64,000 nt of DNA from Tribonema minus (Eukaryota > Sar > Xanthophyceae > Tribonematales > Tribonemataceae), in assembly GCA_017506865.1 (NCBI GenBank), contig JAFCMP010000058.1:186001-250000 (forward strand), in the 5' to 3' direction. How positions within the stretch are numbered: position 1 is the stretch's first letter; every line of letters begins with the position of its first letter. Below the pieces are notes generated by a model. The model made no database searches and was not told the DNA's origin. It worked only from the letters and a program-made list of their open reading frames with translations. The position numbers and the translations under genes are program-made. Below, in pieces: positions 234-60,500 of this stretch.

Positions 234-3200
234 CCGCGAGCTCACGCGCAAGGACCTGCTCAAGAAGCACCTGACGCGCGCGATGGCGGCAAGCGCGCGG
301 CACGCGCGCGAGTTTCACATCATGCCCCAGACGTTCGTGCTGCCGCACGAGTACACGGCGTTCGTCGCGGCGTTCTACGCTGCCGCAGAGGCTGCTGCTG
401 CTGCCGGCGGCGGCGGCGGGGATGGCAGCGGCGGCGGCAGCAGCGGCGCGGCGGCGCCTGAAGGCGGCGAAAGCGGTATGTACGAGAAGTTGAAGTTCTC
501 CTATGTCTTTTGTTTCAGAGAGGCGTGGGTGAATATGCAACAAGCAGTCGCTTTGCAGCAGCGTTCAGCATCACCATGCCGCAGATGCGGCAGAGCCAAG
601 CGGCATTAGAATTAGGGCGAAACGTGAGCGTTAAGGTTAGAGTGGGGGTCAGGCGCTTGACTCATGAGCGTGCAGCTCTAGCAAGGCGTTATCGCATCCA
701 CACAGCGCGCAACCTCCCCAATATTCAGCTTCTTGCAGTGCTACACCACGCAGCAGTAGTGACATGTGGTGTGTGCCAAGCTTGCGCGCGAACAGTCTCA
801 AGCTCCTGTGCCCTAACCCTATCCTCGGCCGCTCTTGCTGCTATCGTCAGCGGGCAATGGTGCAGCTGGGGTTCAAGCAGCCTCTGGCGAACGCCCCTGC
901 TCGGCTGACAGGACCAACATTTGGATCATGAAGCCCGTCGGGCTGAGTCGCGGGCGCGGAATTGAAGTTATCGACGATGTCAGGTGCGTTGTACATCGAA
1001 CACTCGCCATGTGCTCCCTCCTTCGCGATGCGTCATGCTTTGCTTGTGCCGGCGACACAAATTTGGCATAACTGGCATAAACGTACATCTAATGATACAC
1101 TTCTATTTGTATACACATGACAGTGTAGTGATATGTATGCACAATAGCGGCTTGCGGTGATGCGCCAATCTGCACTCTCACAGTGCAACACTTGTGTGTC
1201 ATGTAGCAAAGCAATGCGCCTTTCAGAATGCAGTCGCCTCTCTGGTGCGCCAAAGGGACGCAGTAACAAAGTTGCACAGAAGATGAGAATGAGTAATAAG
1301 TACTCGAGGAGTACTACTCCCGATAGAGCTGAAATTTACATGAGTGCTACAGTACAACTCCTGTTTCAAATATAAATTACATGAGTTCCAGAGTACTGCC
1401 CTCCTTACCATTGAAAATGTACACGAGTCCAAGTACTGTACCCGAGTAGGTAATCGACGAGAACTCGAGTAGTCCACGAGTCCCATGAGCAAAGAGAGCC
1501 AAGCGTGCTCAAATGTTCCACAGAAAGCTTCTTTTAGCATGTTTCGTTCCTCTTGCTGGAATGAGTATGCATTGTGCATGGCAAGCTGCAGCACTCTGAA
1601 TAATTTAACGTCAGGACGAGCAAGTATTCGTAGAGTGTTCCTTTGGAACTCCAGAATTGTGCATGAGTACTTGAGAACTACTTCCATCATATTGAAAATT
1701 TACACGAGTACATGAGGACCACTCCTGTAAATGTTATTAAAGTTTACACAAAGCATCGACCACGTCTCCTTGTCTGGCAACGAGCAGTACTCTTACTCCT
1801 TAAAAGTACTCGTGTTCGTCCTGTCTGTGCAAGGTTGCTGTGAACAGGAAAACTGAGGCTCATGGGTATGCACGTACACATACACGCCTGCCCATCTCTT
1901 ACCCTGAGCCAAGTGCACTATGGTTACTTGCGCCAGAAGCAAAGAAAAAAAAGGCGGCAGTTGAAGATGCATATACCAATGTGTGATTGTGTGGTACTCA
2001 TGCGGCGGCAGTGCGGCTGGTGTGCTACAGCCGCAGCGTTGTCGTGCAGCACTATGTGCAGCCACACCACTTCGCATCCTGCGCGTACTCCTCACTTAGC
2101 GGTAAGGGTAGCGTTAGGGTCACTTATCCCTGTTGCACGTGCACGCAGCATCCGCAACACCATTAAGGACATTCTTTATGCGTGCCTGCGCATTGCGCTG
2201 TTGTGTTGTGGGTAGAGCGTTCGGTGCGCTACAGTGACCTCATCGCCGCGCAGCACTGCTACCGCACCGCTGCGCACCCGCGCGCAAACTGCGCACGTGC
2301 GGCAGACCCAGCACTTTTACAACCAAGACTTTGAACTTGAGCTTATCGTACACTCCTGTTCTTGTGACGCGCTGTCTGCGAATGGCGGCACCGCCGTGCG
2401 CTACAGCGACAGCATCGTCGTGCAGCGCCTCTGTGTACCTATGCGATCACGCCGCTCTGCATTTCATCCATGACCTCTGCGCACACATCGCGCTCGCGTC
2501 TCCGACCAAGCATAAACCACGCTCAAGACCTGATCACGTACTCCTGCTGTCACGATGCGCCGTTCCGGTTCTGAACTTTTGCCAAGTAGGGAAGGTTTAA
2601 AAACTCTGAAGTGAAGTTTGAACAGGGCTCAGTGCTCATCACGGATTACTCACCAGCTGCAACACCAGTCCCTTCACCTCATAAACCTCGCAACGCGGCG
2701 CGCTACAGCAACGGCGTCGTCACTGTGCACACAGTCACGCCGCTCTGCACTTGACTATGACCTGTGCACACACGTCGCGCTCCCTTCTTCAACTGTGCAT
2801 ACTTGAAGTATATAACTCACGCCGCTCAGGACCTGACCATGTTGCCGCCGCGATGCTCTGTTCCACCGCCGCAGCGCCGTGCGCTACAGCGACAGCGTCG
2901 TCGTGCAGCGCTACGTCGGGCGCCCGCTGCTGCTGGGCGGCTACAAGTTCGACCTGCGCCTGTACGTCCTCGTGACGTCCTTCAACCCGCTGGAGGCGTT
3001 CCTGTATCGCGAAGGCTTCGCGCGCGTGAGCACGCGCGCGTACGACGTAACTGCCGAGGGCCTGCGCGACCGCTTCGTGCACCTCACCAACAGCAGCATA
3101 CAGGCAAGTGGGTGACTCTCCTCTGCGCGGCAATGTCCCTGTGCAGTAGCGTGCGTGCATGCAGGTGTAAACTGTAAGTACTTTGCAGTATCTTTGTGTT

Positions 3201-6200
3201 CATGATGGCCATCGCGTGGTGATTGAATTAGTACTATGAAAAGGGCCGCTTTGTGCACCTCACCAACAGCAGCATACAGGCGAGTGGTGACGCTCCTATG
3301 CGGCACGGAAGTGTGCGCATTTAGGTGCACACTGCAACTACTTCGTAGTGTCATTATGACCATGGTGGCCATCCATGATCATGATGGTCACTGAATCGGT
3401 GCTACACAAAGGTCCGCTTTGTGCACCTCACGGACAGTGGCATATGTTCTAGTGGTGACGCTCATGCACTTGGTGATGCTCTTATGCAAGCCGAAGCGTC
3501 CGTATAGAGGTACATGCACACCATGGGCGGTCCCTGACGAGAGCTGAGGCCCATTTGATTGGGGTTAGGGTTAGGTTCAGGTCCAGGCTGTGGTGCCAAG
3601 CTTGAAGTTGATCTCCTAGGATTTTCGGCTCTGGGGCGGATGTTCCAGGAGTGCTTAGAGGTGCTCATGTGGCGCCATCACTTAGGGTTAGGGTTAAGCA
3701 ATTGCCCATCTGCCGTCGGTATCCATTGCACCTCCCATTTCCAGCGATATGCACACGTAATGCCCTGCGCAGAAGCTCAGCAAGGCACGCATGCATGACC
3801 TGCGCAGATGCTCGACAACACGTGTAGATGTATGAACCGCGCAACAGCTCAACAAGGCAAGTCACCTTTGCAGAAGTTCAACAAGGCGTTGAAGAACGAC
3901 CTGCACAGAAGTGAGGTCTGCACATATAACCGGCGCAGACTCTCAACAGCGCATGTATATACTTCGAAGTACTTCGAAGTATGATTGCGCGAGACTCATT
4001 AGGGCATGTATGCATGAAGTGTGCAGAAGTTTGACCAGCTGTGTATGTATCATGACCCGCGCAGAAACTCAACGAGGAGGGGGCAGCGCGTGACTCTCCC
4101 CTGCTCGACGGCGAGCTGCACGAGACGGGCGGCACCAAGGTAACTTCAACCCTACATAGGTGGTGCAGGCCACACCCTATGCTTTCTGTTCGCGGTTTCG
4201 TAAGTTTGTTGCAGGTCACTGACAACATGTGTTACTGTATACATATACAGAACGTTCACATTCAAAAGCCACATATTATTGCACCGCGCGTCAAGACATG
4301 TGCTGTTTGCTGTAACCGCGCGCACTGAGCCCGACTTGGTGCGGTACTGTGAGCCAGATCATGCATGGCACGCAGCGCCGCCCGCGCTCATGCGCCCCAC
4401 TTCGCTCCCATCCCCATTTAAAAGTACGGCTGCCGTCATGCTGTGTCCTCGTTGACTCTTCTCCCAGCCCGTGCCACAAAACTTTGGTGCCGTCGCTCAC
4501 CTACCTGCAGCTCTGCTCGGCCACCCTAACCCTAACCCTAACCCAAACTTCAGTCACTGCACAAACACCGTCCTCGGCGTATCGACGCGTATTACCCTGA
4601 CCTGAGCGCTAAAGCTCATGTGCGCCGCCGCAGGCATCGCTCAGCTACCTGTGGCTGTGCCTGGGGGTACGGGTGACCCGCGCTCCAACAACCGGTTTGT
4701 GTGCTTCCATCTTGCACCGTCAGTTCCCCGCATTATCCTCTTCATTGACATGAAGTGTACAGCTAACCTGAGCGCTGCAACGAGTGCGCGCTGCAGGCAT
4801 CGCTCAGCTACCTGTGGGCACGCCTCAGACGCGCGCGCGTGCCGGTGGACCGCCTGTGGTCCGACATCACTGATTGATCCTCTTCCTTGACTTGAAGTGC
4901 ACACCCTCTTCCTTGACTTGAAGTGTACGGCTAACCTGAACGCTGCCACGTGGGCGCCGCCGCAGGCATCGCTCACCTACCTGTGGGCGCGGCTGCGACG
5001 CGCGCGCGTGCCGGTGGATCGCCTGTGGTCCGACATCACCGCGCTCGTCGTCAAGGCGCTCGTGGCGTGCGAGCCGGGCGTCCCTGCGCAGCCCAACGCG
5101 TTCGAGCTGTTTGGCTTCGACGTGCTGGTGGATGCCGCGCTGCGGCCGTGGCTGCTGGAGGTCAACGCGTCGCCGCAGATGGACCGGGACCACGCGCTCG
5201 ACCGGCGCGTCAAGGAGGCGCTCATAAGGGTATGCAGCGCTAGGCGCGTTGTTGCTTGCTCACGGCGTGAAAGACCCAGCTGATCAGCGTCAAGCGAGGG
5301 GTTAGGTGGATCGTGTACTTTGTGCTCGACTGGTAGGTACCGTCGTGTCCGAGTTTAAGGACACAGTCCGACAAATGCGGTGTGGCAGCAAAAAAGGTGG
5401 GGGTGACCGCCAATTTGAGATGGCCAGTTAAAGGCTGACCTACATTTGTCGAATAGGCTCACAACGCATCGCCAGGCATCATCAGATAGCATCGGGAGCA
5501 CGAGCGAGCGACAACTTCAACTTCAAATAACATTGCCGAAAAATGTGCGCGTTGGTACAGGCAGGCCCCGTGCCCTCAAGGGCCAAGGCGGTTGCCAAAG
5601 CAGCTAGCTGTATTTGCCGACAAGCAACGCAAATTCAGCTTCTTCTGCATCTGTCTAGCTGCTGCAGCACACGCGTAGCGTAGTAGAGCCAAGAAGCAGT
5701 AGTGGGATGTGGGGTGGTGGCGGTGGTGGCGGGGGCGATCATCCTAAATCATCAACGCACAGCAACAGCAACGGTAATAGAGAGCCTACCGCGATCCTGC
5801 CCCTCGCGAAGATCATAATGCCAACAGTCGGCAGGAGATTTTGCTCGGCCGAGCGGAAGGCTTAATGTGCTGAAAGAGCTTGCTTGCGCAACACAACTTG
5901 TACGTTCACACAGTCGTGCAGTGAAGTGTCTGGTACCGTCCTGGCGAAAGCTGAGGCGATATGCGACGAAGTGTATGTACCTCAAACCCCCCCTGACCAA
6001 CAATTTGGAATGGCCAATTACCTAAAGGGTGACCTATAAATTGGGTGGCTTAGTTGGAACTGACGCATTAGTCGGACAGTGTCCTTAAATTCGGACAAGA
6101 CGGTAGAAAAGCTTGTGGTTGGCGCGGCCCGGAGGCGCTCATCAGGGTGCGCGCTGTGCGGAGCGCTGCTGCAAATTGTATGCAGCTTATTGCCATGACT

Positions 6201-8017: not shown

Positions 8018-12308
<4,291 letters not shown>

Positions 12309-12469
12309 GATGCTGTGTGAGTGTGAAGGGTAGTAGAGAGCAGTCCTGCCTTGGCACAGATGCGGTCACTAGGGGCTCGCCGCTGGTGGTGGCTGGAGAG
12401 TGCAGAAGTGATTTTGTCAGTGTGTGTGTGTGTCCTTTCAAACAGCCACCCGTTGTCCCCCGGCGGGGG

Positions 12470-14640: not shown

Positions 14641-17600
14641 CGCGGGCTCGTGCAGAGGGTCCAAGACAACCATGGGGATCAGCTGCCCAAAGGCTTGGAA
14701 CACCTCGGCCTCAATCCATGGGCGCGTGAACCACTGCGCCGCGAGCAGCCCCGGCAGTATGGTCGCGACGGTCAGCAGGGGGCGGCACCACGGGTGCTCC
14801 TGCGTGGGACAAAAAAGCGGTGCGGTGCAGCGGGTCATGCATTGTCGCAGCAACGTGGGGGAGCAGGAGCGCATGCAGCCGTGCATGACGATAAGCACTG
14901 ACGCTTGCTTGCGGCGCCGCCATTACGAGGTGCCACCGACTCCGCGTTGAAGCAAGCGCGGCTGTGTCATGGGGATTTTCCGCATCCACGGTATAATCTG
15001 AGCACTTCCATGGCAAAGGTACCGAAATGCTGTGTTCTTGACGCTCCCACTACGTGAGAAGGCCCCAAAAGCTCTTCCAAACGTAGTGATGTTGATGACC
15101 TGAGTAGGCTGTCCCCCGCCTGTAGCTGATGCTCATGCACACATTGAGGTACTGATACGGTATGTATGTCCTTGTTGCAGCGCTCACCTTAACGAGGCGC
15201 TCCGCGTCCGGCCACGGCGCGCAGCACAGCGCGAACATGAGCGCAAAGAACCACAGCACCTCGCCGAAGCGGTACACGCCGCGCGGCGCGCCGTAGAACA
15301 TCATGTTCCACTTGAACTCGTGGAACAGGCCGCTCACGCAGAAGGCCGCGGCCGCGCCCGCCATGGCCTGGTGGTGATGAGCAGCGCGTATGGCAGGTAC
15401 GTATGAGTTGATGTGTGCTTACTTCAGAATACTTCATGTTTGACGCAGGACGCTAAAGTAGGGATTGAAACTTGTCGCGTGCTTGCGCGCGCTGCCGCAT
15501 CAGCAACAGCGCCACACGCACGATGGACTTGCAAGGCGACCAGCGAAGCGCACAGCGCGACAGCGTAACGACAATATCTCACTCAAAGTCGTGGCGGCCG
15601 CCGCCCACAACTTCAACTTCAACACCTGCGCGCCCCGGGGGCCCTGCGTGTGGACTCACCCCATACCGCTTCGACACCGGGCGGCTGTACGTGCGCTTGA
15701 GTATGCCGTGGATGAGCAGGTTCCAGCGGCGGCCCCAGAACTCGCGCGGGCTCAGCGAGAGCAGCAGCGGGTTGCGCATGACGTCGACGGGGCGGTAGCC
15801 GACCGCGCACATGGCGGCGCTCATGAGCTGCGCGCGCGCGGACGTACGTTTGCGCAGAGAGAGACGGTTGAGCGGTGTGACGGTGACGCGGATCTGCCAA
15901 GGGTGACGGGCCGGTGCGGCGGTGGTACTTTGCGGTAGCCGACCGCGCACGTGGCGCAGCGCTCATGAGCTGCGCGCGCGCGGACGTACGTGGCGCAGAG
16001 AAAGGGGGTTGAGCGATGCGGCAGCGGCGATGGCGGCGGCGCCGAGCGTGACTGCGGGTGGTGATCGGTTGCGGACTGGGCGAGGAGCGATGCAGATTGC
16101 GCACAGCAGCCCGGGGGGCTGAGTCGTTGAGCACTGTCGCCCAAGTGCGCTGCGCTCATGGCAGCGCTCATCATGAGCTGCGCGCACGGGCTCGTTAGCG
16201 CAGGAAACGGGGGTTGAGCGGTGTGACGGAGGAGCGAATTTGCAAAGGATCGTGGGTTGGTGCGGCAATGGTACTTCGTACGGCAACGGCAGAACAACGC
16301 AGCATCCTACGCTGCGCCTCAGCGGAGAGGACACGGCAGGCCGGGGGGTTGAGTTGCTGAGCTCTGCCGCGTAATGGCGCTGTACGCATGGCGGCGCTCA
16401 TCATAAGCTGCACACGCAGAAACGTCAGTGCAAAGAAAGGGTTGAGCGCTGTGACGGAGGAGCGGCCGCGGCTGCGCGGAGCCATCACAGGTCAGCGCGG
16501 ACATCATGCTTTGATGTATAGCACGGCAGTGCTGTGGGCGAGAGGTAACGCTTAAAAGAGGATACTGGGTGGCTGGGCGACGAGTCCTGTTGACCGCTGC
16601 CTTGCACGTTGCACCGCGCAAAGTTGGCAGCGCTCAGCGCCTGCGAGCAGCGCGGAGCGTGCAACGGCGGCGCGCGCAGCACTTGCAATGCACGCGCACC
16701 TTGCCACATCTGCCAGTGCTCTCAGCCGCTATGTACAGAGATCAGCAACACGCAAGCGCGCCATCGACCGCCGGCCGGCTACTGACGCATCACCGCCCTC
16801 TACCGTGCAGCGTTGTCGTTTGCAAGGCACTCAGTGGCATGCAGCAGGACGAGAACGCAGCAGGACCACTGTCGCGCATCACCATCCGCATTGCTGCGCG
16901 GCGCTGCCTGCTGACTGCCGGTTAAGCGCATGTGTACTCACTTTTTCAACCGCTCTCTCACATCGACCGACGGCCGACGACTGCCGCATCACTGCCATCT
17001 ACCCTGCAGTGTTTGCTGTTTTGCTGCGAATACCAACTTTTTCTCTACCGAGACCTCACGTTTGCGAGGGTTCCCAGGAGCACGCAGATGATGGCCGCGT
17101 GCAGCGCGTTGTTGCCCATGCGCAGCGCGAGGCAGCGCCAGAAGCCGCCGCCGCACGCGCCGTCGAACGTCGCGCCGAACGGCATGAGGGGGAGGGGGCC
17201 GCTCAGTCCCAGCGTCATGAGCCCCGAGAACAGCGCCGCTGCGAAGATGTGGCAAGCATGCACACATACATGCGGGTTGCTGAGCATGCGTTATGGGGGG
17301 GGGGGCAAGGGTGATTTCATTGCTTGCGTATGCATTCTTTCTGTGCCCGAATAATGGCGCCGCTGCGACAGGGAGCAGCCGGCACCGTAGATATGCGCAC
17401 ACGCGCTGTGTTGAGCATCACCACATGAGGGGGGGGGCTCAGCCCAGGGGGGGGCTCAGCCCAGCGACATCATGGCCTCGAGAACAGCGCCGCTGCGACA
17501 GGAGCTGAACGGTAAAGGTATGCGCGCATGCGCTGTGCTGAGCATCACTGCACAAGGGGAGGGGCCCTGAGATCGAAAGCAGCTGCCATGCATCACCGAC

Positions 17601-36300: not shown

Positions 36301-38279
36301 TCTCTGAAGTACACATTCATATATGTACACGCTCAACAATTTATGCTGTACCTAGCCCAACAATCAATGCTGTCTCTAGGGTTGGGGTCAGGGTCTTGTC
36401 GTTAAGTTAACGACAAGACCCTTGCCCTGCCCAATGTCAATTGTTTGTACGCACCCACTTGCGGTGGATGGCGGCGGTGCTGCATCAATTTGTTACAAGA
36501 GCACAATGTTCTGGAGCGTGGAAGACCCATTGTCTCATCTGGTGACACGCAATCCTGAAGTTGATGTGTTGAAGTTCTAATTGCGTCTTTCATTGCGTGC
36601 TGTCATGTGCCAGTATGCTCTGAGACTGCAGCGCTGGCGGTGGCACTGCCCATGATGTTGCACATGTGTTCATGCTCGAGTTGCCATCATCAACCATCAA
36701 TTATTGTTGTCGTTCCGCCTTACGTGCATCAGCTGCATCGTCAGTGGCGCATGCTTGTTGCGTCTCATCCATGAGCCGCCAGGCACAGGCACACAATTCA
36801 GCTGATTCATCTGATATGCTTCATCTTCATGATGATGATTCGTCATCATCATATGCTTTATCTGTCTCACTGATGAACCATATTGTAGGGTTGCGGTCTC
36901 GACGCAGTGTGACAGCTTCCACTGTAGCACCGCTAGGCATCGCCATCACATTCTCGTGCTGAAATTGCCATCATCATCATGGTGTGGGTTCGTGTCTGTT
37001 GCGCGCTGAAGCATTGTCTGACGCGCACTTCCACTGGGCTGCGGCTTGTGCAGGTGATTCAGGGCCTGCCCGGAACATGTGATTCATCGCTCATCACCCC
37101 GCATTCCTGATGTTGGATGTATTGAAGTTCTTGATCGCTCTCCGCCTGAATCGCTGTCATCACATGATCAGAGTTTGTTGATGTGTTTGGCGTGCATTAG
37201 ACGCCTTGTCTGATGCGCACCTTTGTTGTGCTGCTGCAGTTGATCCAGGGGCCGCCCAGAACACATGTCCCATCGCTGATGACTCGCGTTCCTGAAGTGA
37301 ACATGTCAAAGTTCTCGACCGCTCACGCTTGAGTCGCTGTCAACACGACATCAGATTCTGTCTTGGTTATGGTTGGCGTGCATTGGACGCATTGGCTGAT
37401 GCGCACCTTCGCTGCGCCGCTGCAGTTGATCCAGGGGCCGCCCGGCACAGGCAAGACCGCAGCGTCCGTCAGAATCCTGCAGCACTGGGCGCAGAGGTGA
37501 GTGGGGTTAGCCGCGCATTCATACTTTCATGTATACTTCCAAGTATGTTTATTGTGCCACATTCATTTGGAGGTAGGGTTGGTCAGGGCCGCCGTTGAGC
37601 GCCGCTGCCACACTGTTGCCGTGACAGTAGTGCTGTTTTCTGAAGTCCAACAGTTCAGTGTTATGGTATCACGCTGATGATAGGATCTTGAAGTGTAGAC
37701 CAATTTTTGAGTTCAGACTAAGTGTCAGGTCAGCGTTTTGCGGGAGTCTCAGCTTGCCGCTTTGTGGCGGCAGTTGCGCGGGGCCCTCTGCGCTCAGCTG
37801 ATGCACAGGCCAATCTTTTGCCCGCGACTGTATGCTACCTCGAGTTACGTGTCCAGGAATTTCGGTCACGGACACTGACGAATACTTAAGCTGTAGGCCT
37901 CATTGATTTGACAAGGCTGCTCGCATGCAATGGTTGCTGTGACTGTGCGTGTGTGGCACCCCGTTCCCCCCGCCCTCCCGCGCGCCGCTGCCGCCGCCGC
38001 TCTGCCGCTGCTGCTGCCACCGCCGCCGCCGCCGCTGCCGGCGTCAACGTGGCCTGGGCACCTACACCCTGCGCTCTGTGATGGCGTCGGTGGCATGTTC
38101 CGCTGGCGCTCCCTTGCTGGTGGCGCCTGCGCCGCCACTGCCGCAATTGGGCAGTGCGCTGCTGCCGCTGCCGCTGCCGCCGCCAGCGGCAAACGCGCAT
38201 GTATCGCGGTTTCTGTGGCGGCTGTGGCGGTGCTGGCCGCATGCGTGTGTATGGCACGCTGCTGCTGCTGCTGCTGCTG

Positions 38280-38311
<32 letters not shown>

Positions 38312-41300
38312 CGCGCCGCGGTGCAGCACGCTCAGCAGCAGCAGCAGCAGCGGCGTGGTTGCTGTGCTGCTACCGCACTCGCTGCGGGTCAGCGGTGCGG
38401 CGGCGGCGCGGCGGCGGCGGCAGCAGTGGCAGCGCAGCGGCGGTGGCAGCAGTGAAAGCGCGGCAGCGGCGGCAGCAGTGCTGGCGTGGCGGCACAATGG
38501 CAGTGGCAAAGCGGAGGCGGGTGGCAAAGGCAGTGGCGGCGTGGCACGAAGGGGCGGCGGGGAAGCGGGGGGGGGGGGGGGGGGGCAGGTGCGTATCATT
38601 TGTCCCCCTGCATCTATTGACTGGATAATATCGCCAAAGAACTGTACTCTGCCATGGTGCTGCAGTAGTCATTAGTATCGCAAAGCCGATCGCTCCTCCG
38701 AGCTTATCACAAGGAGCAAGGAGACAGCGGGGGGGGGGCGGAGGGCGTTGGCGGTGGCGAGGAGGAGGCAGCGCGGCGACGAGATGTGCGCTGGCGCCGG
38801 TAACAATGCCAGCGCTGATGCGGGTGATATTAGTGCCGGTCTAACCGTATCAAAAGCCCGCTTTACGCCAGCTGCTCGAGCGGGCTCGAGCAGCTCAAGG
38901 CAGCAACGAGCTCGAGCAGCTGGCGTGTAGCGGGCTTTTAATACGGTTAGACCGGCACTAGTCTCACCCGCATCAGAGCTGGCGTCGTCACCGGCGCCAG
39001 CGCACATCCCGTCGTCGAGCTCCCGCCTCCGCCTCGCCACCGCCAACGGCTGGTGCAGGAGGCCCGGCAGGCTCCTTTGACGACTTGGACTTAGGGTTAG
39101 GGTTAGGGTTAGGGTTACTTCTTCGCGGGCTTCCCCGGCTTGTCAGCCGGCGCCGCATCAGCCTTGCCCTTGGGGCTGGAGTCTATCAGCTGTGCACAGC
39201 TGCCATCAGTTGTGGTTTGCAGTCGTTAGTCTGCTCAAGTGGATGTTCGCATGCGCGTTTGTGATGGTTTGGCGGGCATTGCGGTAGCGATTGTCTCCGC
39301 TGTCGCCGTTCTGTCCAAGTGATGCGTTTGGAGCGCGCGCACACATAGCAGCGCATTAGCTGCAGCACGGGTACTTCTGTGCAAATACATCTGTAGTTCA
39401 AGTGGCGACTTGCCTGCAAGCTGGCGGTGCTGATGATGTGCTGCTCACTGCCCTAAAAAGAAACCATGACCACTTGAAGTACATCCAAGTTACAGAGGTG
39501 ACGCATTCATCAGCCTGTGATTCTGATCACCTCTCCGGTACGCCCCTGACTCTCCTGCTTCCCTACCCGTACCTACCATTACCTACGCAACAGCCGGTGC
39601 CACGGCGAGCAGGTGCTCGCCTGCAGCGATTCCAACATTGCCGTGGACAACCTGCTAGAGGGGCTGCTCAAAGCGGGCGTCGCAGCGGTGAGTGCAGTGT
39701 TGCACCTCATGTTTGCGCGTCGTTGTCAGTTGAGGTATGAGTTTACGCCTGTGCATGAAGGGCTGTAGAGCTGCTGCGTGACAACCTGCTAGAGGGGCTG
39801 CTCAAAGCGGGCGTCGCAGCGGTGAGTGCAGTGTTGTACTTCATGGCTGAGATACGAATCGCGCCTGTGCGTGGAGGGCTGTAGAGCTGCTGCATCATGA
39901 CAGCACGGCTGCTGGTGGACACCTGAGTGCTTCACATCATGATCCTGCTTGTGAGGTTCATCGCACGCACCTCGCGCGCTGGCCCTGCACTGCCGGTCGC
40001 TACTGTCCGATTCGCGCTATCTATGCCTGTTACCAATGCGGACCATGCTTGGGTTAGGGTTAGGGTCAGGGCCACACATCCCCTTCGCTGGGTGGGTGGA
40101 GGGGTGGGGGGGGGGGGTGCTGGTAGTGGCGTACGGCGTGATGTGTGAGCGTAATGACGTAACAATTGCATTCCGAGACTGCTGGTGCCGGGGTTGCAGC
40201 AAGCGCGCACACTCACATCGCTGCCGCCTGTTGTGCGGGGCGTTGAACTATGATTTGAAGTTGCAGGGCCGAGCGCTGATCTGCATCGCGCGTGTCCTCT
40301 CGTCGCGCATCTCGCCACCGTCTGTTGCACGGGGCTTCGCGCGACGACTTGAAGTTGAGGTGCCGGGGGGGGGGGTGACTTTTGCTACTGGTGGGCATTG
40401 AGCGATGACTTGAAGTTTTGGGGCTGAGCGCTGCTGCCCGCTGCGCTGAGCAACGATGCAGGTGCGCGTGGGGCGTCCCGAGAGCACGCGCCCGGAGCTG
40501 CTGCAGTACTGCGCGGACGAGATGGCGCAGCAGGTGACGCTCCGCGCTTTGTGCATACATGAAGCTCGCCGTATCACGTACATGTATACTTTAAAGTACT
40601 TTTGAATCTGCAAAAAGAGTACCTACGATCAGCGTACAAATAGCATACAATTATTAGTGTGGCAGGTGATGCTCCGCACTGTGCATACATGAGGCTCACC
40701 ATATTCACCTACATGTATAGAAGTATACTTTGATAGTACTTTGAATCTATCACAGAAGTACCTGCGTTCAGCATGCATTTGGCAGTGTGGCAGGTGATGC
40801 ACTGCGCTGTGCGCTTACACGAGGTTCACCATGTTCACCTACACGTGTAAAGTTCTGAGGTACTTTGAATCAAAACAACAGAAGAACCTATACATTTGGC
40901 GGACAAGGTGGTGCAGCAGGTGACGGTCCGCGCTTTGTGCATCAGCACATGTGTACCTATACGCATAGAAGTATATACGTGTGCCTACCTTCAGCATACA
41001 ATTGAAAGTGTGGCAGGTGACGCTCCGCACTGCGCATGCATGAGGCTCACCACATTTACCTACGTGTATAGAAGTATACTTTGGAATTACTTTGAGTCGG
41101 CAACAAGAGCATGTACCTATTTTCAGCATGTAGTTGGCAGTGTGGCACGTGACATGCCACGCTCTGCTTGCATCAGGCTGTGTACTCACCATATCCCCCT
41201 ACACAAACACTTTGAATCTACACGAGTACCTACGTGCAGCATATAGTTGGCAGTGTGGCACATGACGCACCGCGCGCTACATATACCAGGCTGTGTACTC

Positions 41301-44300
41301 ACCATGTCCGCCGATGCATATACGAAGTTTTTGGCATTTTAGCACAAAAAGAGCCAAAAAACTACACTAGGAACCAGCCAAGGGCCGTTGAAAAGGGCAG
41401 CGAGTGCCACATGCAGCACCAGCCACCACTCATACATACATACATGAGACACATATGGACACACACCAGCTGTTCGCCTGCCCCACGCCAGCTTGCGCAG
41501 TGCTGAATGCACTCTTGCATGTCACTCTGTCAGCGCCTCCCTTCGGGTGATTTCGTACGTCTTCCAGTATGAGTTTATCAAGAAGTACTTGATGATGCAT
41601 GAGTTTGCGTGCTGCAGCTGGGAGACCGAGGATCGCCTACTTCAGTTCGCAGACCAAATCGCTGCTCACCTGTTTGTTTCATTGCTGACCTATTTGCGTC
41701 GCAGGCAGCGCGCCTGGCAGATCCAGGCAGCGCCAAGCAGGCCGCGCATGACGCGCGCACGCGCGCGATACGCGCAGCCCGGGTGAGTTCACCGTGTACT
41801 ATGATAGTACACACACACATAGTACTACTTCTGCTTGATCCTTCGAAAATGGTGTGCTCGTTGCTCCCTCAAATGGTGTGCGCAACGCGAGTCGGCTTTT
41901 GGGCATGCTGCACTGCTGTGCCTTCACTGTACTTGAAGTGATGTCAACCAAAGAATAAATACTTGGAGGCGAGCTCCTTCCTTGCGGCTTCTCATTTGAG
42001 CGCCTTCTGCGCCTGCCGCGACCACATACGCCACCTCTCTCAACACAGGAGCGTTGCACTAAGCCGGCCAGCAGGTGGTGTGCGCAACATGCATCGGTGC
42101 GGGCTCGGGCACGCTCGACAACTTTGAAGTAGTCTTTTGAATCATCAAAGTGTTGTTCAGAGAAACTGCCTTCTCCTCGCCCTGCATTTGAACACTGAAC
42201 GGTGCCTCCTCAGAAACACACGCCAGCTTCAACAATGCAACACTGTGCTGATCGGCGCGCAGGTGGTGTGCGCGACGTGCGGCGGCGTCGGCGCCGGCAC
42301 GCTGGACAAATGTCGCTTTTTGCTATGTCGATGCTTGCAGTACTTTCAACCAAACAAGATACAAAGCACTTGAGAGAAAACCGCATTCTTCTCAGCTTCC
42401 AGTCGTGCGCTCTACGGCACCTGCTCAGACACATACTCAACATACGAACCATGTGCTAACTGGGCTTGCAGGTGGTATGCGCGACGTGCGTCGGCGTCGG
42501 CTCCGGCACACTGGACAAGTACCGCTTTGGGGGCGTGCTTGTGGACGAAGCGAGCCAGGCCACGGAACTGGTGAGCCAGCGCCTGAGCACTGCTCCCAAT
42601 TTTTTCCCTTCTGCTCGCGTGTCGCAGGTTGATTTTGTCAGTAATACTCGTGAATACACTCGAGGGGCTATCTTTCACACGGAGGACGACGGTTGCGCTG
42701 GGTCATGTGCAAATGTGAAATCGCCTCGATGCGCTTTGATGATCACTGCAAACGTGTAGAGGCACCTTTTATTAATTCTCGCTCAGGGCGCGAAAAATGT
42801 GTACTCCAATGCAACATGATGTCGCAGCTGAAGCTTGAAAAAAAGAGTCAAAAGGCGACAGAGGGTTAGGGTTAGGGTCCGGCATGCTGACAGCACACCG
42901 CGCCGCGCTTTCGCAGCTTGCAACAAGGCACGCTTTCGTGCAGCGCATTGCTTACATGGAGCCCGCGGCGCACGTCGCCGAAGACGTGCATTGCAGCACA
43001 TTGCAGCATCGCTCTGCATTGCAGCAGCGCTCAACTGCCTGTCCCTTCTGCGTTGCGCGATGCCCCCCCCCTTTCTGCGCAGGCGACGCTGGTGGCCACG
43101 ACGCGCGGGTGCCAGCAGCTGGTGCTCGTGGGTGATCACTGCCAGGTGATTTGGCAGGCTATGCATGTATGCCAGTAGGTACATATTTGTATGCAGATGC
43201 AGTATGCATCAGTATAAATGTATGGCATGCCAATGCTGGTGGGCGACAGCATTGCCAGGTGAATAGTGCCAGGGTTGGCATGTATGTATCTATGCAGGTA
43301 TGTATGTATGTCAGTACATGTCAGTGGTGTAGGTGTGCTGGTGGGCGACCACTGCCTGGTGATTTGAGCTCAACGATCTTTTGATTCGTTTTTCATTTAG
43401 CAGGGTATGCATGTATGCCGTTAGGTATCTATGAATATCATGTCAGTACATACCGGTGTGTATGTTTGGCACGCCAATGCTGTGGACGAAAGCACTGCCA
43501 GGTGAATAGTGGCAGGGTAGGCATGCATGCCATATAACTTGCATCCGGCTTGTGGCAAAGATGCAGTGCTGTATCTGTGGCCGCGGTTGTGCCAATGTAC
43601 AATTTGGGCTGAAGGTGGTGCAGGCACTGCAGGTGCAGTTTCCACACGACCGTGGTGCACCTGGCTGCTTCCGTCCTGAAAAGGTGTGTGGCGGATATAA
43701 ACTGGTTGGTGCTGCCAACAGTGACCGTTGCAACTGCTGGGCCGCCGGTCGCAGCATGCACGCATCTTGCATGTGGTGAGCGAGACTTCCTTCAAGTAAT
43801 GGCTGCAAAAACATTCGCAGATATATCATAAGCTCTGCGATCTTTTGATTCGTTTCCACAAGGTTTACATTGCTGTGTCAGCTGCGACTCATGCAGTATT
43901 TTGGAGAGAGAAGGTCGAGCTTGACGGTCGTCGATGTGCAAAGACTCCATGTGTGAAGTCAACACGACCATTGCATCAAGTCATTGAGTCAATTCGACAT
44001 GACCATTGACACTGCGTCATCCTAACCGGTGTGCTGTCCTTGTGTCTTGCTGTCCCCCCCTTTCTGGCCGACAGCTGCCGCCCACGGTGGCGTCGGAGGT
44101 GGCCGCAGCTGAAGGACTGAGGTATGCACATTGTCGATCATGCATGCCTGTCGTGCTATACTACTGCAACCTGCTGCGCTTCGCTACGCTTCAGGCTTTT
44201 GTTGAACCGCAGAGAAACATCTACTTAGTTCAAGTTTTGGCATGAAAGTGACTCGCCAAGCCCTGTTCTGCTGGGTCAGCATCGGCAGCATCGCCCCCTT

Positions 44301-47300
44301 GCTCCGTCCACAATCACGGATGCCATTGGTATCGCCTGATTCACCGTAAAGTGCCCATTTCAATTTCTAGCGGTGTAGGCACAGTGGAGGCCATTGCCAA
44401 GACAGCTTCAACACCTGTCTAGCCCGCACCAAGTCTTGAGTCGCTGCCGCTGCTGCTGTCTGCCCGGCAGCGCCGGCTCTGTGCCGATCATCACACTTCA
44501 ACTTAAAATGGTGCAACATCTGCTGCCCTCGTTGTTCTGCCGCTTTCGCGTCTCAGCGTGAGCCTGTTCGATCGGCTGGTCCAGGCCGGTGTGTCGCCGT
44601 TCATGCTCGATACCCAGGTGGGTTTGGCTAGGCGCTGACATTCTTGCCTTGGGTAGGCTGGTGTGCTCCTGCTGAGTTTGCCTGAGCACCGCCTCACATC
44701 TACTTGCTGCTGCATACTTGTTGACATCTTTGTTTTAGTGTTTGAGGGAAACTGACTGTCCCGTTTGGTGCGCATATGGTGATGCGCTCCTGATGTGCGC
44801 TGTGTTGGCATCTTTTATCAGAGCGCTAGGTAGACAACAGGTAGAGCGCAGACGACACTGTTCCACTTGACAGTCAGGGCTGACCGCGCTGCCTCTGACG
44901 CCTGGCTACCTAACCCTAACCCTAACCCTAAGTTTTTCTTTCAAACCCTAACCCTGACCCTAATGCTGTTGCATCGCAGTGTCGCATGCACTCGGTAGAT
45001 CTGATCGTCCTTTCGGTTACCAGTGTGCATACTTTATCTGTCGTTTCCCCAGCGCGGAAGCGGGTGTTCTGGAGCCCCTTTTGCGACCGTGATTGACCAC
45101 GCTGCTATGGTCCCGCGCATGTATGTATTGCAGTACCGCATTGCACCCCCGGGCCATCTTCATGTTCCCCAGCGACTGCTTCTACTTGGGGACCCTTGTT
45201 TTGCCACCATGGCTGACTGCGCTGCTATGTATGTGTATGTATGTATCGCAGTACCGCATGCACCCAGCCATCTCCATGTTCCCCAGCGACTGCTTTTACG
45301 GTGGCACCATCGCAGACGGCATAGTGGCGGCCGACAGGTGCGCAGAGCCTCACCACCATAATGATAAAATTGCTGGTCCTTTTTCAAATGAATGCTTGCA
45401 GCTACGCACCCATTCGGGGAGTTGCGGAGGTGACGGTCTATGCCGTCGGCGGCCGACAAGTGCACAGGCACCACCACCATAATGAACAACTTTGCGCGTC
45501 TTTGATGTGTGCTTGCTTGTAGGCGTTGCGCATGCTTGTTGCCGTTGCGGGGACTGGGGGAGTACAAGCTTATATAAATTGGGACCTAACCTTGAGAGGG
45601 TCCCTGTCACATGTCTCCATTGCAACGTCAAGTCGTTGCTGGTGCAACAGCCAGCGTCGCGTGCAAGAAGCCATAACATGTGCTCCCGCTTGCCTGGTGT
45701 GAACCAGGCCAACTGTGGCAGGGATATCACATTGCATTGCTTGAATCAGGCCGTTTCTGGCTATAATGACGATTGTTGTCGCTTGCGTGGTGTGAACCAG
45801 GCCGACGCTGGCAGGGTTCAACTGGCCACGTCCGGAGTGGCCCGTGGCATTCCTCAATGTGCAGCACTCGCGGGAGGAGACCGACGGACCCAGCAAGCTC
45901 AACAGGGTGGAGGCGCAGGCAAGAGCGCGCCGCAAAAATAATTAGGGCTAGTTTGGAGTGAGGGTTTGGCCTCATGCGGCAGCACCCGCGCAGCGTGATG
46001 CTGCGCAGCGCATTGTGCGTAACTGGTGCAGAGAACACCCCAAATAGCAGCTACATTTGCACTACTGTTACTGTCATGTCAGCCTACAGGGAGCCCGCGC
46101 CAACATGACACAGTGCAGTGGCCGTTGCGTCGCTTTGAAGTACGCCTTGAAGCGTGGCGGTGCTCTGTGATGCGCCACCCTGGGCCGGAGTGCACGCATA
46201 CCACTGCAGTATACGTATTATCACTGCCGCGAGGAGCATCTGCACGCTCATTAGATTGTAGCAGGCGTATGCACGTGTTCACAACGGCCTACGCGAAACG
46301 GAACACCCTGTAGAATGCAGGTGCGTCGCTCCTCAAAGTATGCCGTTGCTGCGTGGCAACCTGACCTCACCTGCGCGCTTCGTGTTCCGCACTGCCGAAC
46401 TGGAGTGCAGACATGCGGCTACGCCCATGCATCTGCATTGCCATGCCCATACCGACCCACATGTCTACTGCGGCCAGAGCTGCATGTCCATGCCACTCGC
46501 CGCGCGCAGTGAACACAGACGTATTTCAGACGTTCACAACGCGTATTTAGCCACCCTGTGCTGTTTGATCACGCACTTGCCCCCGGTGCCTCATCTCGTG
46601 CTCGTATGCTGCAGCAGCCTGTTCTGCGTAATTGCTCTGTGATCATTATGAACCCCTGGTGCTGTGTCCGCTGTTGTGTCAGGCGGTGGCGAGCGTGGTG
46701 AAGGGACTGTTGGACGGAGGCCTCACGCCTCTGCAGATTGGCGTCATCACGCCGTACGCCGCACAGGCAAGTCACACAGTTGAAGTTTATTCGCCTCGTT
46801 CGTCACGCCATTGTAATGCTGATGCGCAGCGGCTGCGCGCTCTCGCAGTGGCTGCAGCCTGCTGAGTCACACAGTTGAAGTATAATCATCACGCCACTTT
46901 TTCCGCCGCGGCCGGTGCGCTGCGGCTGCGCTTTTGTAGTCACTGTACCCGGCTGACCATGCCACAAGCGCCGTGGTGAATCATGGTCGTCGGGCGCCGC
47001 TGGGAGAGGTAACGAGTGCAGCCGATAGCGCGGAAGGCAAGTGGGAGTTCCTCTCACGCAGGGGTGGGTGTCACTAAGAACGCATTCAAGCACAATGGAA
47101 AAAGCATTGGGAGAGAAACGTCGTCAATACTCTGAGCGCGTCACCATCAATGAGCATCTCTCTGCTGGCTGTCTGCTCAGCCCCGCATGCGACACGATGA
47201 TCGCCTCACCCAATCCTAACCTAATCTTGACCATACCCTCAAATTCGCATGTCTCCATGGCGCGCTTGTTTTGCAGGTGCGCGTGCTGCGCGGCCTGCTT

Positions 47301-54583: not shown

Positions 54584-57500
54584 CTATTTCTTGCCGCCCT
54601 TGGTCGCCTCCTGTAGGAACGCGTCAAGACCAAAGGGGTCGGCCTCCTCCGCGTCCCGCTCAAACTGGACGGGCTCCGCGCCGCGGTGGCTGACGCCGGC
54701 TTCAGTGCCCTGTTGTACGACGAGCGGCAAAGGAGGAGGAGCGGATGTTGAGGGCGCTGTGCGTGTAAGAAATGGGAATTAATCATTGATGATATGCACA
54801 GCGCAGTCGTACCGGCGTCAGCACGAAACCTTGTGATACGGGTATATACTTGTGACGCCGGGTGCCCTGTTCACCGCTGAGCAGCTTGTGGGGTGTTTGA
54901 GAAACCTCTACCTGAGTGTTGAAAAGCCCTGACCGCGGACAAGCGGCAGTGAGACCGCAAACTAGTGAGAGCATGGACTTCATGCCACCGACGCGTGCTG
55001 TAGCATGTCGAGTACACTAGCAGCATTCGCGAAGGACCACAGAAAGCTGCTGCAGCCATCCACTGCGGACATGACTCTTCGAAACATGTGCACTTTTCAA
55101 AGAATAAATGCATCGTCGTACGGCTACAGTTCGGGTTCGAGTTAACCCTTCGGAATTGGAGGGTTAACTCTCATCTTAACCCACTTGTACACAACAGCAA
55201 GTCACTGAAGTCAGTGGTCGTGGCAGATGCCAAGACCATACTGCGTGTCATGTAGCACAGCGTGGCGTGCTTGGAGGCCGCAGACGGCCTTGCACCTGCT
55301 ACCGCCCCAAGTTATGATACAAAATCAACTGTACTATGCAACTTCAAATTGGAGCTTAGCGCCCCCCACCCTGCATACCTTGGAGCCGCGGTCTGCCTTG
55401 CACCTGCTGGTGATAGTCAGCCGCTTCATTTACTGATCTGCCGCGCCGACCCCTCATAAGATATGTGCAAAACATACTTCAAGAGCTCAGGTGCGTCAAT
55501 GCCATCAGCTTATGTACACACAACAGCACGTCAGTACTCGCAGCACTCTCCAAATTTGAAGTTGACCTGCTAAAGTCCCTTGATTTACAGCAGCGCACCT
55601 TGAAGCCGCGGTTTGCCTTGAACCTGCTGGTTGAAGTTAGCTGTTTCATCTGCTGCGCATCGCCGAAGGCATCAACGAACTACTTTCACCTCCTAAACTT
55701 CAAACTTGATTTACAGCAGCGTACCTTGAAGCCGCGGTCTGCCTTGAACCTGCTGGTTGAAGTTAGCTGCTTCATCTGCTGCGCATCGCCGAAGGCATCA
55801 ACGAACTACTTTCACCTTTTAAACTTCAAACTTGATTTACAGCAGCGTACCTTGAAGCCGCGGTCTGCCTTGAACCTGCTGGTTGAAGTTAGCTGCTTCA
55901 TCTGCTGCGCATCGCCAAAGGCATCAACATTTGAACTACTTTCACCTCCTAAACTTCAAACTTGATTTACAGCAGCGTACCTTGAAGCCGCGGTCTGCCG
56001 TGAACCTGCTGGTTGAAGTTAGCTGCTTCATCTGCTGCGCATCGCCAAAGGCATCAACATTTGAACTACTTTCACCTCCTAAACTTCAAACTTGATTTAC
56101 AGCAGCGTACCTTGAAGCCGCGGTCTGCCTTGAACCTGCTGGTTGAAGTTAGCTGCTTCATCTGCTCCTCCGCATCGCCGAAGGCATCGCCATCGCTCTT
56201 GCGCGGCCGGTATATGCCCGCGCCCTCGCCCCTGTCGAGCATGGGCCTGAACGCACGCGCGGCGAGCGCAGAGAGGGGGTGAGCAATGAGATAAACCACA
56301 ACGAGGGCATGAGTGAACCAACGGACTTGAAAGCACTGGGCTGATCAGTGAACGTAATGGAGTGCGGTCGGTCAAGGCTGCGAAATGATCGCCTCTGGCA
56401 AGCATGGGCCTGAGGCGCGCGCAGCGAGTGCAGAGGGGCGGCGAGGATGAGCAACGAGGTATACTGAGAAATTTCACAACAATGAGGCATATAACAACGA
56501 GGGCTTGCATGCTCCCATAGACTCATTACACATAAATCTGGCATCCCACTGTGGATGTGTGAACATGTCTGTGGCAGTTCCACCGCGTGGTGGCCGTGCG
56601 TTCCCCTTTTGATGAAAGTTCTCCCTCGCCTCTGCCTGAGCATCGCGAGACGCGCCTAGCGATGATGAGCAGTGAGGCAATGAGAATGAGACACTGCGTG
56701 AACCTGTGGACTTGTGTGCACCGGCCGTGGGAGTGAAGTACATGGAGTGATAGGGGTCAGAGCTGCAAAGTTCACGCGCGATGTGCGCAGGCCAGCGCAC
56801 CTGCGGCCGTCCCGCATGCGTACATTTGAAGATGGCATCAGAAGGGACATTGCGCTCCGCTCGCAAAGGCATGCAACGCAGTACACTCAGCTTGCACTCC
56901 TAGTTCCCAACTACACAACACATGCGGTTGCCGATCACCATCCAGGCCAGCGGAGCGTCGACGCGGTGACTTCTGGAGTTGAAGTTCATGGTAAAGTGCA
57001 GCAGCGCTCGGCACTTACTTGGAGTACAGGTTGTAGTCGGACTCGTCGCCGAAACCGCTCGACATTCCCGCGCTCTGGTTGAAGAGGCGGCTGTCGTAGA
57101 GGCCCTCACCACCCGCGCCGCCGCCGGTGCCCTGCGAATAGGCGACGAAAGGAGCAGGTGGGTATTGATATGCGCAATGCAGCGCGAAGAGGGAGGTGTA
57201 GAGCAGTCAGCACTCGTCGTCAGGCTTTGCCAAGGTCGTGGTGCATAATCTCCGTGTGGAGTGCTGCGCAAGCGAAACCCTAGCTGATGCCAAGCACTCA
57301 CCCCAACCCTGCCGCTAACCTTAACCCTAACCCCAATCCTAACCCCCACGACACGCGCCACGCGCGACAGCCACTACACGTTTGAGCGGTCCGCACCATG
57401 AATTAGTATTAGGGTTACAGTTAGGCCCCGCGCGCGCACTCGCCACATGGCAGCCCAGAACAAACGTCTCAGGCGGCACACGTCATCGGGCGTCGCCAGA

Positions 57501-60500
57501 GATGGCGATCTCAACTGCGTGAACGCGCGCACGCGCCGCAGCACCTCGCGCACGCCGCTGCGTCGCTGAGCCAAGGTGACATGCGCGCACGCATACATAC
57601 ATACATGCGCACCTTGAGCTGCCCCAGCGCGATCTTCTCCGAGATGTCGCGCTCGCGCTCGACCTTGCCCTTCTTAAAGTTGCCCTTCATGGACTCCAGC
57701 CGCAGCTCGCGCTCCCTGTCCTTCTTGCGCTCCGCGCGCAGCCGCTCGCGCTGCTGCGCCGCCACCCTCTCATCCTCATCCCCCGCCCCCCCACCCCCCT
57801 GCACCCCCCCCTCCTCCCCCTGTACACCCCCCCCCGCTGCAGCGGCCAGCGGAGCGCTGATGCCGGCGCGCTCCATGCGCGCGCGCGCCGCGAGCTCGCG
57901 CAGCTCCCCCTCCTTGGCCTCCTTCTCCTTGAGCGCGAGCGCTTTCGTCATGTCGGCGCGCAGGCGCGTCTCCTCGCGGGCCTTGCGCTCCGCAATGTAG
58001 AGCGACTCGCTGAGCGTCGCGAAGTTGTGCGAGACGGTCGCCTCGACGAGGCCGCGCCCGTCCGCCGCGAGGCGCTTGTCGAGCGGGATCGTGTAGCCGC
58101 GCGCGTTCTTCCAGTTGGAGATGCACGGCGGGATCTTCCACGCCGCCTGGTCCGCGACGGTTACCTGCAATGCGGCGCGGCGCAGGTGACGAGCGGCAGC
58201 GGTCAGAGTCACGAGTCGAGTTACGAATCATTTAATGATCTTTCACGCCGCCTGACCTGCATGACGCGGGGGATGGGCAGCAGTGCTCAGTCAGTCAGTG
58301 CGCTGCGAGTCAAGAGTCGAGTCATGAGTCATCTGACGATCTTTTACGCCGCCTGGTCCGCGACGGTGACCTGCGTGGGGATGGGCAGCAGCGCTCAGAG
58401 TCAGTCAGTGCGCTGCAAGTCAGGAGTCGAGCTACGAGTCATCTGACAAGCCTTCTACGCCGCCTGGTCTGTAACGGTGACCTTCATGACGCGGCACGGG
58501 CATAGGCAGCGCTCAGTCAGTCAGGGGCTGCGAGTCACGAGTCCTGCAACAAGTCATCTGATGGGACAGCAGCCCTCTGGCATGCAGGGAGCGTGCGTGT
58601 GCGCGCGCGAGAGAGGGACGCAGCGGGTCTCGGGTGGCGAGGGATGCGCGGGGTGCCGCTCATGAGCTCAGGCATGACGGGGCGACGACTCTCGGCAGCG
58701 CGCGCGCCGCGCCAGCAACTTTTGATATGATGTCCAGCAGACGTACCCACTCTGTTGCACCACCTGGGTCACAGATAAGGTTAGAGATAGGGTCACGCGC
58801 GACCACACACACTCGCCCCCGCGCTGCAAGTGGTCACGGCGAGCGTCGCCTCAGCTTTTGCGGCCAAGTACAGCTACGCTTTATGGTTGTAAGTTCAAAC
58901 TTGAAGTTACCTTGCGCGGCGGCGAGTGCAGCACGGGCACGGGGTCGTCAGGGGGCCCCCGCGGAACCTTCTTGTGCTTGTGCTTGGGGGGCTCCAGGGG
59001 GTCCTGCTGTACCTCCACCATGCGGATGACGCGCTGCTTGGCGGCGGGGTTGAAGCCGGGGGCGTTGGGGTTGGGCGTGTATCTCACAAACTCCGCCTCC
59101 TTCGTCTGCAAGAGTCAAGCGGAGAGGACGGGGGGGGGGGGAGGGGGGTCAGCTCATGGGGAAGGGGGGGGGGTAGGAGCAAGGGGAGAGTCACGAGTGG
59201 AAGTGTGCGCTGGAGTGCAGGGGAGCGTAGGGGTTGAACAGAGCATCGCCGGTAGGGCAAAGGCTCCTGCCGCAGGGCGCCCATGTAGGCAGTGCACGCG
59301 CTCCAGGCGTCTGCTGTGTGGGAGCTCTGTATCCAGCTCGACGCGCTGCACGCGCTGCTCCGCATTGACGTGCGAAGGAGTCGGCATACGATCGAAGCAC
59401 GCTTCGCCACAAAGACTCTCAGTGCTGATTGAAATTTGTACCGTGCGCACTTGCCGCTAGCTGCTGCGAGTTCATGAACTCCAAGCAGCGGCTGCTAACT
59501 GTGTGTGTACTTTGCATGCGCCCTTGCTTGAGGGGCAAATAAGTCCGCATACATTAGTGCTCATACCCAACCCCACCGTGTGTGCGCACTTGCCACCAGC
59601 TGCTGCGATATCATGGCAGAAAAAGGCCGCATACAATTGATGCACACCTCGCCACAAAGGGTCAGTTTATGTGACTATGTCTCAGTGCTAACTGACAATC
59701 GCACCGCGCGCGCACTCACCGCGAGCTGCTACGAGATCATGAACTTCTCCCAGCAGGGGCTGCTGCCTGTGTGCAAGACAGTGTGTTCATGCCCTCGCTT
59801 TTGAGGTTGCGATCATGTAGTCCAGGCAGGCTGCTGAAGGGGTGCACTATTCATACATCCTCGCTTGTTGAAGTTGCACACTTGCTGCCGGCTGCTGTGA
59901 GATCACGCTCACCGAGAACAGGCCGCATACAGTCGATGCACCCCGTCACGAAGACTCTCAGTGCTCACTGACAGTGCGCGCTTACCGCGAGCTGCTACGA
60001 CATCACGTAGTCCAAGCGGAGGCTGCTGACTGCGTGCACGACAGCGCATTCATATCCTCGCTTTTGCAGTTGCGCACTTACCGCGAGCTGCTGCGAGATC
60101 ATGCCCGCCGGCGTCGCGGACGTGACCTTTACGCCCACAATCTTCTCCAGCGCGAGCCGCGTGCGCTCCGCCGTCGCAATCTCCTCGTCCTCCGTCGGCA
60201 CGGCGAGCTTGTCCGTGTCGCCCGCCTGCAGCGCGACACAAGGGGGGCAGGGCAAGAGTGAGCTACACACGTTGTGTACATGTGTGCTACACGCGTGTGT
60301 ACGCATGTCCGAATCGCCCGCCTGCAGTAGGACACAAGAAGGGCTTGACACGAGTGACCTAGCTACACGCGTGTGTGTACGCACAAGCAGCGCGCGCGAG
60401 AGCTGTACGATCTCTGATGCACTGCGCCTCGTCGCCTATGCGGGTGAGTGCCTGTTGGCGGTCGTTGCGAACGGCGATGACAGCGCCAGCTGCGCTGCCG

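Follow-up and report, generated by a model that had tools for sequence, protein, structure and literature searches.

Genes and duplications at the locus

The locus considered here is a stretch of 64,000 nucleotides (the window) from contig JAFCMP010000058.1 of the xanthophycean Tribonema minus, whose genome comprises 158 Mb in 554 contigs. Four of its genes were recognized by profile matches: a TTLL gene with a TTL domain (PF03133), an MBOAT gene (MBOAT_2, PF13813), an SF1 helicase gene with an AAA_11 domain, close to UPF1, and a SKIP/SNW gene (PF02731). As the initial annotation had proposed, introns of all four contain tandem copies of the exon boundary that adjoins them (Table 1). Each copy, hereafter an edge echo, joins a short end of the exon (the stub) to its splice site and to adjacent intron sequence. 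The copy at 39779-39834, reported in that annotation as near-identical, matches the true edge at 42 of 42 exon bases. Self-comparison of the window (direct pairs of at least 40 bits) yielded 98 repeat pairs spaced 30-2000 bp and 7 spaced beyond 5 kb; the far comparison area is about 14 times the near one, and some 0.5 near pairs are expected from the ratio of areas. A locally shuffled window, a control of the kind proposed in the initial annotation, gave 0 pairs. In the 59 introns described below, taken with their exon flanks, 161 direct pairs were found against 2.5 inverted ones. With near pairs so far above expectation, an empty shuffled control and direct copies vastly outnumbering inverted ones, chance is rejected as their source.

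In the SF1 helicase gene, the protein obtained by splicing at the outermost edge of the arrays aligns with human UPF1 over residues 33-222 of the 222 in the query (E 2.3e-31), so that the outer copy is likely the true edge for arrays within exons C-J. The alignment spans exons C to J and is interrupted near two of the joins, by gaps of 4 and 9 residues; it does not reach back to the array at the 3' end of exon B. Under this splice model, a UPF1-like protein requires no new intron made from echoes.

Table 1. Edge echoes in the window, with duplications of other kinds for comparison (window coordinates unless a locus is given)
Feature	Position	Strand	Details
TTLL acceptor-edge array	2009..2911	+	copies ~2009, 2213, 2385, 2687; true exon start 2875
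TTLL donor-edge array	3070..3463	+	true exon end 3103, GCAAGT donor; copies 3246, 3414
TTLL acceptor-edge array	4597..5039	+	true exon start 4966; copies begin 4634, 4797
MBOAT acceptor-edge array	15792..16465	-	three copies; true exon start 15827
MBOAT acceptor-edge array	17193..17565	-	true exon start 17238
Unnamed gene, donor-edge echo	29458..29610	+	exon end ~29504; by eye
Unnamed gene, donor-edge echo	30483..30777	+	exon end ~30573; by eye
SF1 helicase acceptor-edge echoes	32694..33183	+	exon start 33109; self-comparison and reading; outside 59-intron set
SF1 helicase donor-edge array	34031..34824	+	copies +329, +537, +718; true exon end 34089
SF1 helicase donor-edge array	35344..36268	+	six copies by alignment, seven by eye; true exon end 35376
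SF1 helicase acceptor-edge array	37008..37449	+	one aligned copy and, by eye, an older; true exon start 37426
SF1 helicase donor-edge copy	39646..39893	+	exon bases 42/42 identical; true exon end 39687
SF1 helicase donor-edge array	40513..41312	+	six copies by eye, one passes alignment to true edge; exon end 40533
SF1 helicase acceptor-edge array	42039..42528	+	two copies; true exon start 42472
SF1 helicase donor-edge array	43122..43532	+	2-3 copies; true exon end 43145
SF1 helicase later exon, echoes at both edges	45079..45485	+	acceptor 45079-45299, donor 45326-45485; by eye; outside 59-intron set
SKIP/SNW donor-edge array	55373..56188	-	4.7 copies of 126-130 bp unit (true edge included) and one older; exon end 56111; outside 59-intron set
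SKIP acceptor-edge copy	56226..56445	-	true exon start 56246
SKIP acceptor-edge array	58132..58561	-	true exon start 58164
SKIP donor-edge array	59384..60110	-	at least 5 copies; true exon end 60082
SKIP acceptor-edge copy	60207..60380	-	true exon start 60225
DEAD-box helicase gene, intron-internal tandem duplication (contrast case)	9387..9613	-	115 bp, 99%; touches no exon
In-frame tandem duplications inside predicted coding	L019 4859-5545; L021 8671-8842; L024 4754-4993; L026 3195-3312; L016 4467-4627

Extent in the genome

The set of 59 introns combines 25 from five genes of the window with 34 from kinesin, dynein and TTL genes outside it, conserved multi-exon genes chosen by family search and not for their echoes. 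Joins are in-frame GT/GC-AG solutions between adjacent family hits, edges being inferred from homology; neighbouring hits separated by over 14 profile positions, and those without such a solution, were left unmodelled. Sixty-two introns were modelled, three of which were discarded for poor length fit (introns 1 and 2 of L028, intron 0 of L038), and two loci that gave no usable splice model (L039, L040) were left out.

At least one edge echo is present in 34 of the 59 introns, five have internal duplications only and 20 have none. Echoes are borne by 17 donor and 23 acceptor edges, 40 out of 118 in all, spread over 11 contigs. The duplications form 53 clusters, 40 at edges and 13 internal, and the edge arrays span 17,974 of 53,227 intron bases (34%): about a third of the sampled intron sequence consists of recognizable copies of its own edges. 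The restriction of the pattern to four genes, as first described, was an understatement; it is found in those four, and in 19 of the 34 introns outside the window as well. In a gene-blind sample of eight 10-kb stretches, two of which flank the window, predicted coding sequence is overlapped by 16 of 27 clusters, the expectation from random shifts being 10.4 (p=0.008), using a predictor that recovered 9 of 14 known exons; at a looser predictor setting, without shift control, the count is 19 of 28. Some members of the kinesin, dynein and TTL families carry almost the entire domain in a single frame, others being split into many exons. One unsplit TTL locus (L009) has no local duplications.

Introner elements are dispersed families that make intron sequence by repeated copying, and repeated units inside many introns bring them to mind, or else an assembly artefact. 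Copying is repeated here too, but the array that was tested is private to its edge. A 1.6-kb piece of it (34900-36500) has no counterpart elsewhere in the 158 Mb, the single match besides its own position being an inverted one of 33 bases within the piece; the same element recurring in many unrelated genes, as introners do, was not found for this array, one of 40, and a dispersed introner family is rejected on that ground. The claim that an array has matches at its own boundary alone is to this extent upheld, for one array searched genome-wide. When different genes of the set are compared with one another, over a search area some 50-fold larger, the matches number 67.5 on the plus strand and 14.5 on the minus strand, and likely stem from paralogous kinesin, dynein and TTL exons. 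Edge arrays are also scattered over many contigs, and most listed pairs diverge by 5-35%, unlike stacked read errors, the exceptions being a few near-identical arrays, L034 intron 1 and the DEAD-box intron among them. An introner-like mobile element or an assembly artefact is, on balance, scarcely credible.

Anatomy of the copies and growth of the introns

The nearest echo lies at a median distance of 174.5 bp from its edge, and within 93-254 bp at 36 of 40 edges; these spacings are offsets of gapped alignments, some of which are distorted (102 for a true 161 in L034 intron 1). The stub, measured on arms spanning the edge, averages 43 nt and stays within 18-74 nt at each of the 40 edges, 35 of which had room for more; its lower limit is partly the limit of detection, and one additional arm in the cluster of L037 intron 0 extends 91 nt into the exon. 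Several copies of high identity stop 4-14 nt inside the intron. At 21 of 40 edges a single copy aligned to the true edge. Among echo pairs, AG is found in 46 of 52 acceptors, and in 33 donors GT is found 24 times and GC eight times, some of the latter from GC parents. The introns therefore do hold decoy splice sites, as had been claimed, so far as can be judged from sequence, the dinucleotides being mostly kept; we see neither their clear retention nor their clear purging. GC-AG introns are inferred in conserved genes, including at echo-bearing edges (window position 3104; L034 intron 0).

The growth of introns is usually attributed to transposons. In the sampled introns, the median length is 922 bp when edge echoes are present and 674 bp when they are not (p=0.0003); once each array has been removed except for half a unit, the former median falls to 557 bp (p=0.09 against 674). 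The extra length of echo-bearing introns is accounted for by the arrays, and the initial annotation was right that these lengthen introns. It had also held that the process acts repeatedly on existing introns, and L034 intron 1 is a case in point. Its acceptor is preceded by five copies at an exact 161-bp spacing, whose intron part is 97-99% identical to that of the true edge, then by a sixth at the same spacing, with 98% identity in the stub and about 80% in the flank, and further out by an older copy, whose stub is shorter and whose flank is near background. Since copies of differing age stand side by side, this edge was used more than once. The process is one of intron growth; it is not a demonstration of intron gain.

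Exon edges as sites of duplication

The account that we consider probable is that unspecific tandem duplication is filtered by selection and that the exon copy keeps reseeding its own array. Short tandem duplications, mostly of some 100-250 bp, would arise genome-wide. Those falling inside exons would be purged unless in frame, while those that cross an edge and copy a short exon stub would be silent, and hence would persist, decay near-neutrally and lengthen the intron. This silence would follow from exon definition, the rule by which splice sites are paired across exon distance: only the outermost copy joins the exon body, and the spliceosome would presumably pair its site and ignore the others. 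The exon copy, kept intact by selection, would go on recombining with its echoes, and edge arrays could in this way regrow by unequal exchange or conversion, while intronic pairs, decaying on both sides, would lose their partner. Regrowth of this kind would fit the fresh array of L034, and also the finding that 24 of 40 edge clusters, but 1 of 13 internal ones, comprise several pairs (p=0.001).

The filter on reading frame is directly visible. Where both arms of a pair fall within a single predicted coding segment, their spacing is a multiple of 3 in every case (8 of 8, from five independent loci, one of which supplies four of the pairs), against 69 of 190 pairs with one arm in coding, which is the chance level, and 52 of 149 outside coding. 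Edges nevertheless hold more duplications than a selection filter alone predicts. Under simple geometric nulls, 17.7 of the 53 clusters would be expected at edges if units were placed evenly and could cross one edge, and 11.5 under a stricter rigid-body model, against the 40 observed; for genes outside the window the count is 24 of 32 against 11.1 (16.0 with the edge detection rate doubled, p=0.0025).

It might be argued that tandem duplication is random and purely neutral, edge copies being merely easier to detect since their exon arm does not decay. Similarity is indeed higher in exon parts (0.90) than in intron parts (0.77; 54 pairs), which aids detection. Yet doubling the detection rate at edges raises the expectation to 25.8 only (p=2e-5), and with exon bases masked, so that only intron-to-intron similarity counts, 28 of 40 clusters still lie at edges against 13.0 expected. 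Within the reach of such simple geometric nulls, detection bias alone is rejected and a purely neutral filter appears improbable.

That excess with masked exons is what one would expect from the main rival to filtering and reseeding, namely a mutational process directed at the edges themselves. Linked to transcription, splicing or chromatin (R-loops, nicks at nucleosome edges, repair primed at the border), it would copy the border as such. Such a process would also suit a stub held to 18-74 nt on donor and acceptor sides alike, and the high-identity copies that finish 4-14 nt into the intron. However, 13 of 53 clusters are internal, with a spacing (74-305) similar to that at edges, and in-frame duplications occur within predicted coding segments. 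Furthermore, donor and acceptor edges are both affected (17 and 23), unlike the prediction from a single splicing intermediate. Edge-directed mutation therefore seems to us unlikely, albeit to be taken seriously.

Decay of the echoes

Once in the intron, the copies largely lose coding constraint. Mismatches between the stubs of echoes and parents number 70/903, 65/906 and 160/937 at codon positions 1, 2 and 3, with 27 gap positions. When changes are polarized in 16 arrays, those private to echoes number 44/36/57 and those private to the true edge 0/2/9; this tally excludes one phase-less array, assumes the phase of TTLL intron 3 and includes misaligned rows of L034 intron 1, which contribute 9 of the 137 echo changes (40/35/53 when they are omitted). 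Two stricter recounts on ungapped rows, removing 4 or 12 of 49 echo rows, gave 31/31/49 against 1/1/9 (15 arrays) and 9/12/20 against 0/1/6 (10 arrays). Echoes are free to change at positions 1 and 2, because changes private to them are common there while the true edge has nearly none. The stubs may at first seem preserved too well for neutral decay; this is explained in part by the codon pattern, which suits an echo at liberty to change beside a parent under constraint.

This bears on the possibility that echoes are functional, as alternative or regulatory exons or splice sites under selection. The splice dinucleotides that they mostly retain might suggest it, as might stubs that are better preserved than flanks between echoes and the tendency of their private changes to fall on third codon positions (31/31/49). 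By contrast, many of the private changes (80 of 137; 62 of 111 in the stricter count) fall on positions 1 and 2, stops and frameshifts interrupt several copies, and the spacing is a multiple of 3 only as often as chance allows (69/190). Tandem or mutually exclusive exons would be whole, with frame and constraint kept; each of the listed echoes carries just a part of an exon. Functional extra exons are rejected for these reasons, and selection for a role of the echoes is very improbable as an explanation of the pattern.

Stubs and flanks decay differently. Between parent and echo, similarity is 0.63 in the intron flank and 0.88 in the stub (69 pairs), unrelated flanks standing at 0.50. A constrained parent accounts for part of this gap. 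It does not account for the gap between one echo and another, 0.61 in the flank against 0.81 in the stub (54 pairs). What remains could mean that one exon seeded its units on separate occasions, or that it converted their stubs.

To be sure, several observations weigh against unspecific duplication filtered by selection. The gap between echoes just described goes beyond a simple neutral decay of whole units. Echo-only changes favour third codon positions; serial seeding from a silently drifting exon would produce this, and weak constraint would fit it as well. The confinement of the stub to 18-74 nt has a log10 P of -10.5 under even breakpoints, and an edge-directed mechanism would give the same; so narrow a length could be the signature of that mechanism, or else longer stubs could compete in splicing and be selected against, as we have assumed. 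The excess at edges weakens if their detection rate is tripled (30.7 expected against 40, p=0.004). Lastly, the association with coding sequence is moderate in the eight gene-blind loci (16/27 against 10.4). A bolder statement can be put forward tentatively: exon edges may be growth points of introns, at which edge-centred copying of the terminal 18-74 nt of the exon with the adjoining intron would have built at least a third of intron length, splicing tolerating up to about eight nearly intact decoys.

Relation to known systems

As head-to-tail local units, repeated at a 161-bp spacing six times running or in units of 126-130 bp, the arrays have the structure of intronic minisatellites. They also recall the internal gene duplications of Gao and Lynch (2009), which are reportedly local and can include intron sequence; both are local and lie within genes, and the present case appears to differ by degree, by its edge bias and by the repetition of its arrays.

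The closest precedent is in potato. In the RdRp gene PGSC0003DMG402000361, a tandem duplication across an intron-exon boundary is reported to have yielded a new spliced intron (PMC4974935), so that the initial claim of no known description of such pervasive arrays went too far. There, as in the 23 acceptor arrays of Tribonema, the 3' end of an intron and the start of the following exon are copied and the splice signals of the parent are inherited. Here, too, direct tandem copies that extend over the border and carry its splice site make up the 40 edge clusters (161 direct pairs against 2.5 inverted). The potato case is one event in one gene, creating an intron, whereas in the present sample 40 of 118 edges are concerned, donor as well as acceptor, with up to about eight copies, and it is an existing intron that is lengthened. 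Single cases being known elsewhere, it is the scale that appears to be new; among the matches listed in a search of the open-access literature, there was no report of a pervasive or genome-wide pattern of edge echoes.

Two further systems share some features of the arrays. The AGGT model of intron gain likewise involves a local tandem duplication with splice signals, but the unit there is exonic and creates an intron (PMC3443670); this model is rejected here, the duplicated unit crossing an existing edge and consisting of intron and 18-74 nt of exon. In [D] stwintrons, duplication of the donor element has been proposed to result from repair of a staggered break (PMC7138796). Donor sites are duplicated in both situations; unlike the present ones, the duplications of [D] stwintrons are very short and the introns nested.

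With near-identical donors or acceptors lined up in a row, the arrays offer a natural experiment in how splice sites are chosen. Only the site joined to the exon body can yield the known protein, and the exon-definition rule thus becomes testable in vivo. Arrays of this kind would mislead gene finders, and could inflate false calls of alternative splicing.

Other observations

A search for the light-harvesting family gave 92 exon-level matches in the genome, as a photosynthetic organism would, among which are genes with identical scores on different contigs (C70/C489, C296/C490). In some paralogues of the family, the spacing of corresponding hits ranges from roughly 350 to 900 bp. These paired contigs are possibly separated haplotypes, which could show allelic change in the copy number of echoes.

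Telomere-like runs of the CCCTAA type occur in introns, at 44911-44950 and 4523-4545 of the window and in intron 0 of L036. In the array of the latter intron they stand directly upstream of several acceptor copies, where the CTAAC that they contain could, we presume, act as a branch point.

Elsewhere in the window, an uninterrupted frame of 433 amino acids (20704-22005, minus strand) matches the FNIP repeat (PF05725) and is devoid of local duplications, and a long arginine-serine rich frame (49439-50584, plus strand), with no Pfam match, resembles an SR-type splicing protein in composition. A motif around CTCGCTCAGGGCGCGAAAAA, noted by eye, is found in tandem on the other strand beside the MBOAT gene (12886-13318) and singly in an SF1 helicase intron (~42768-42800); it is probably a dispersed repeat.

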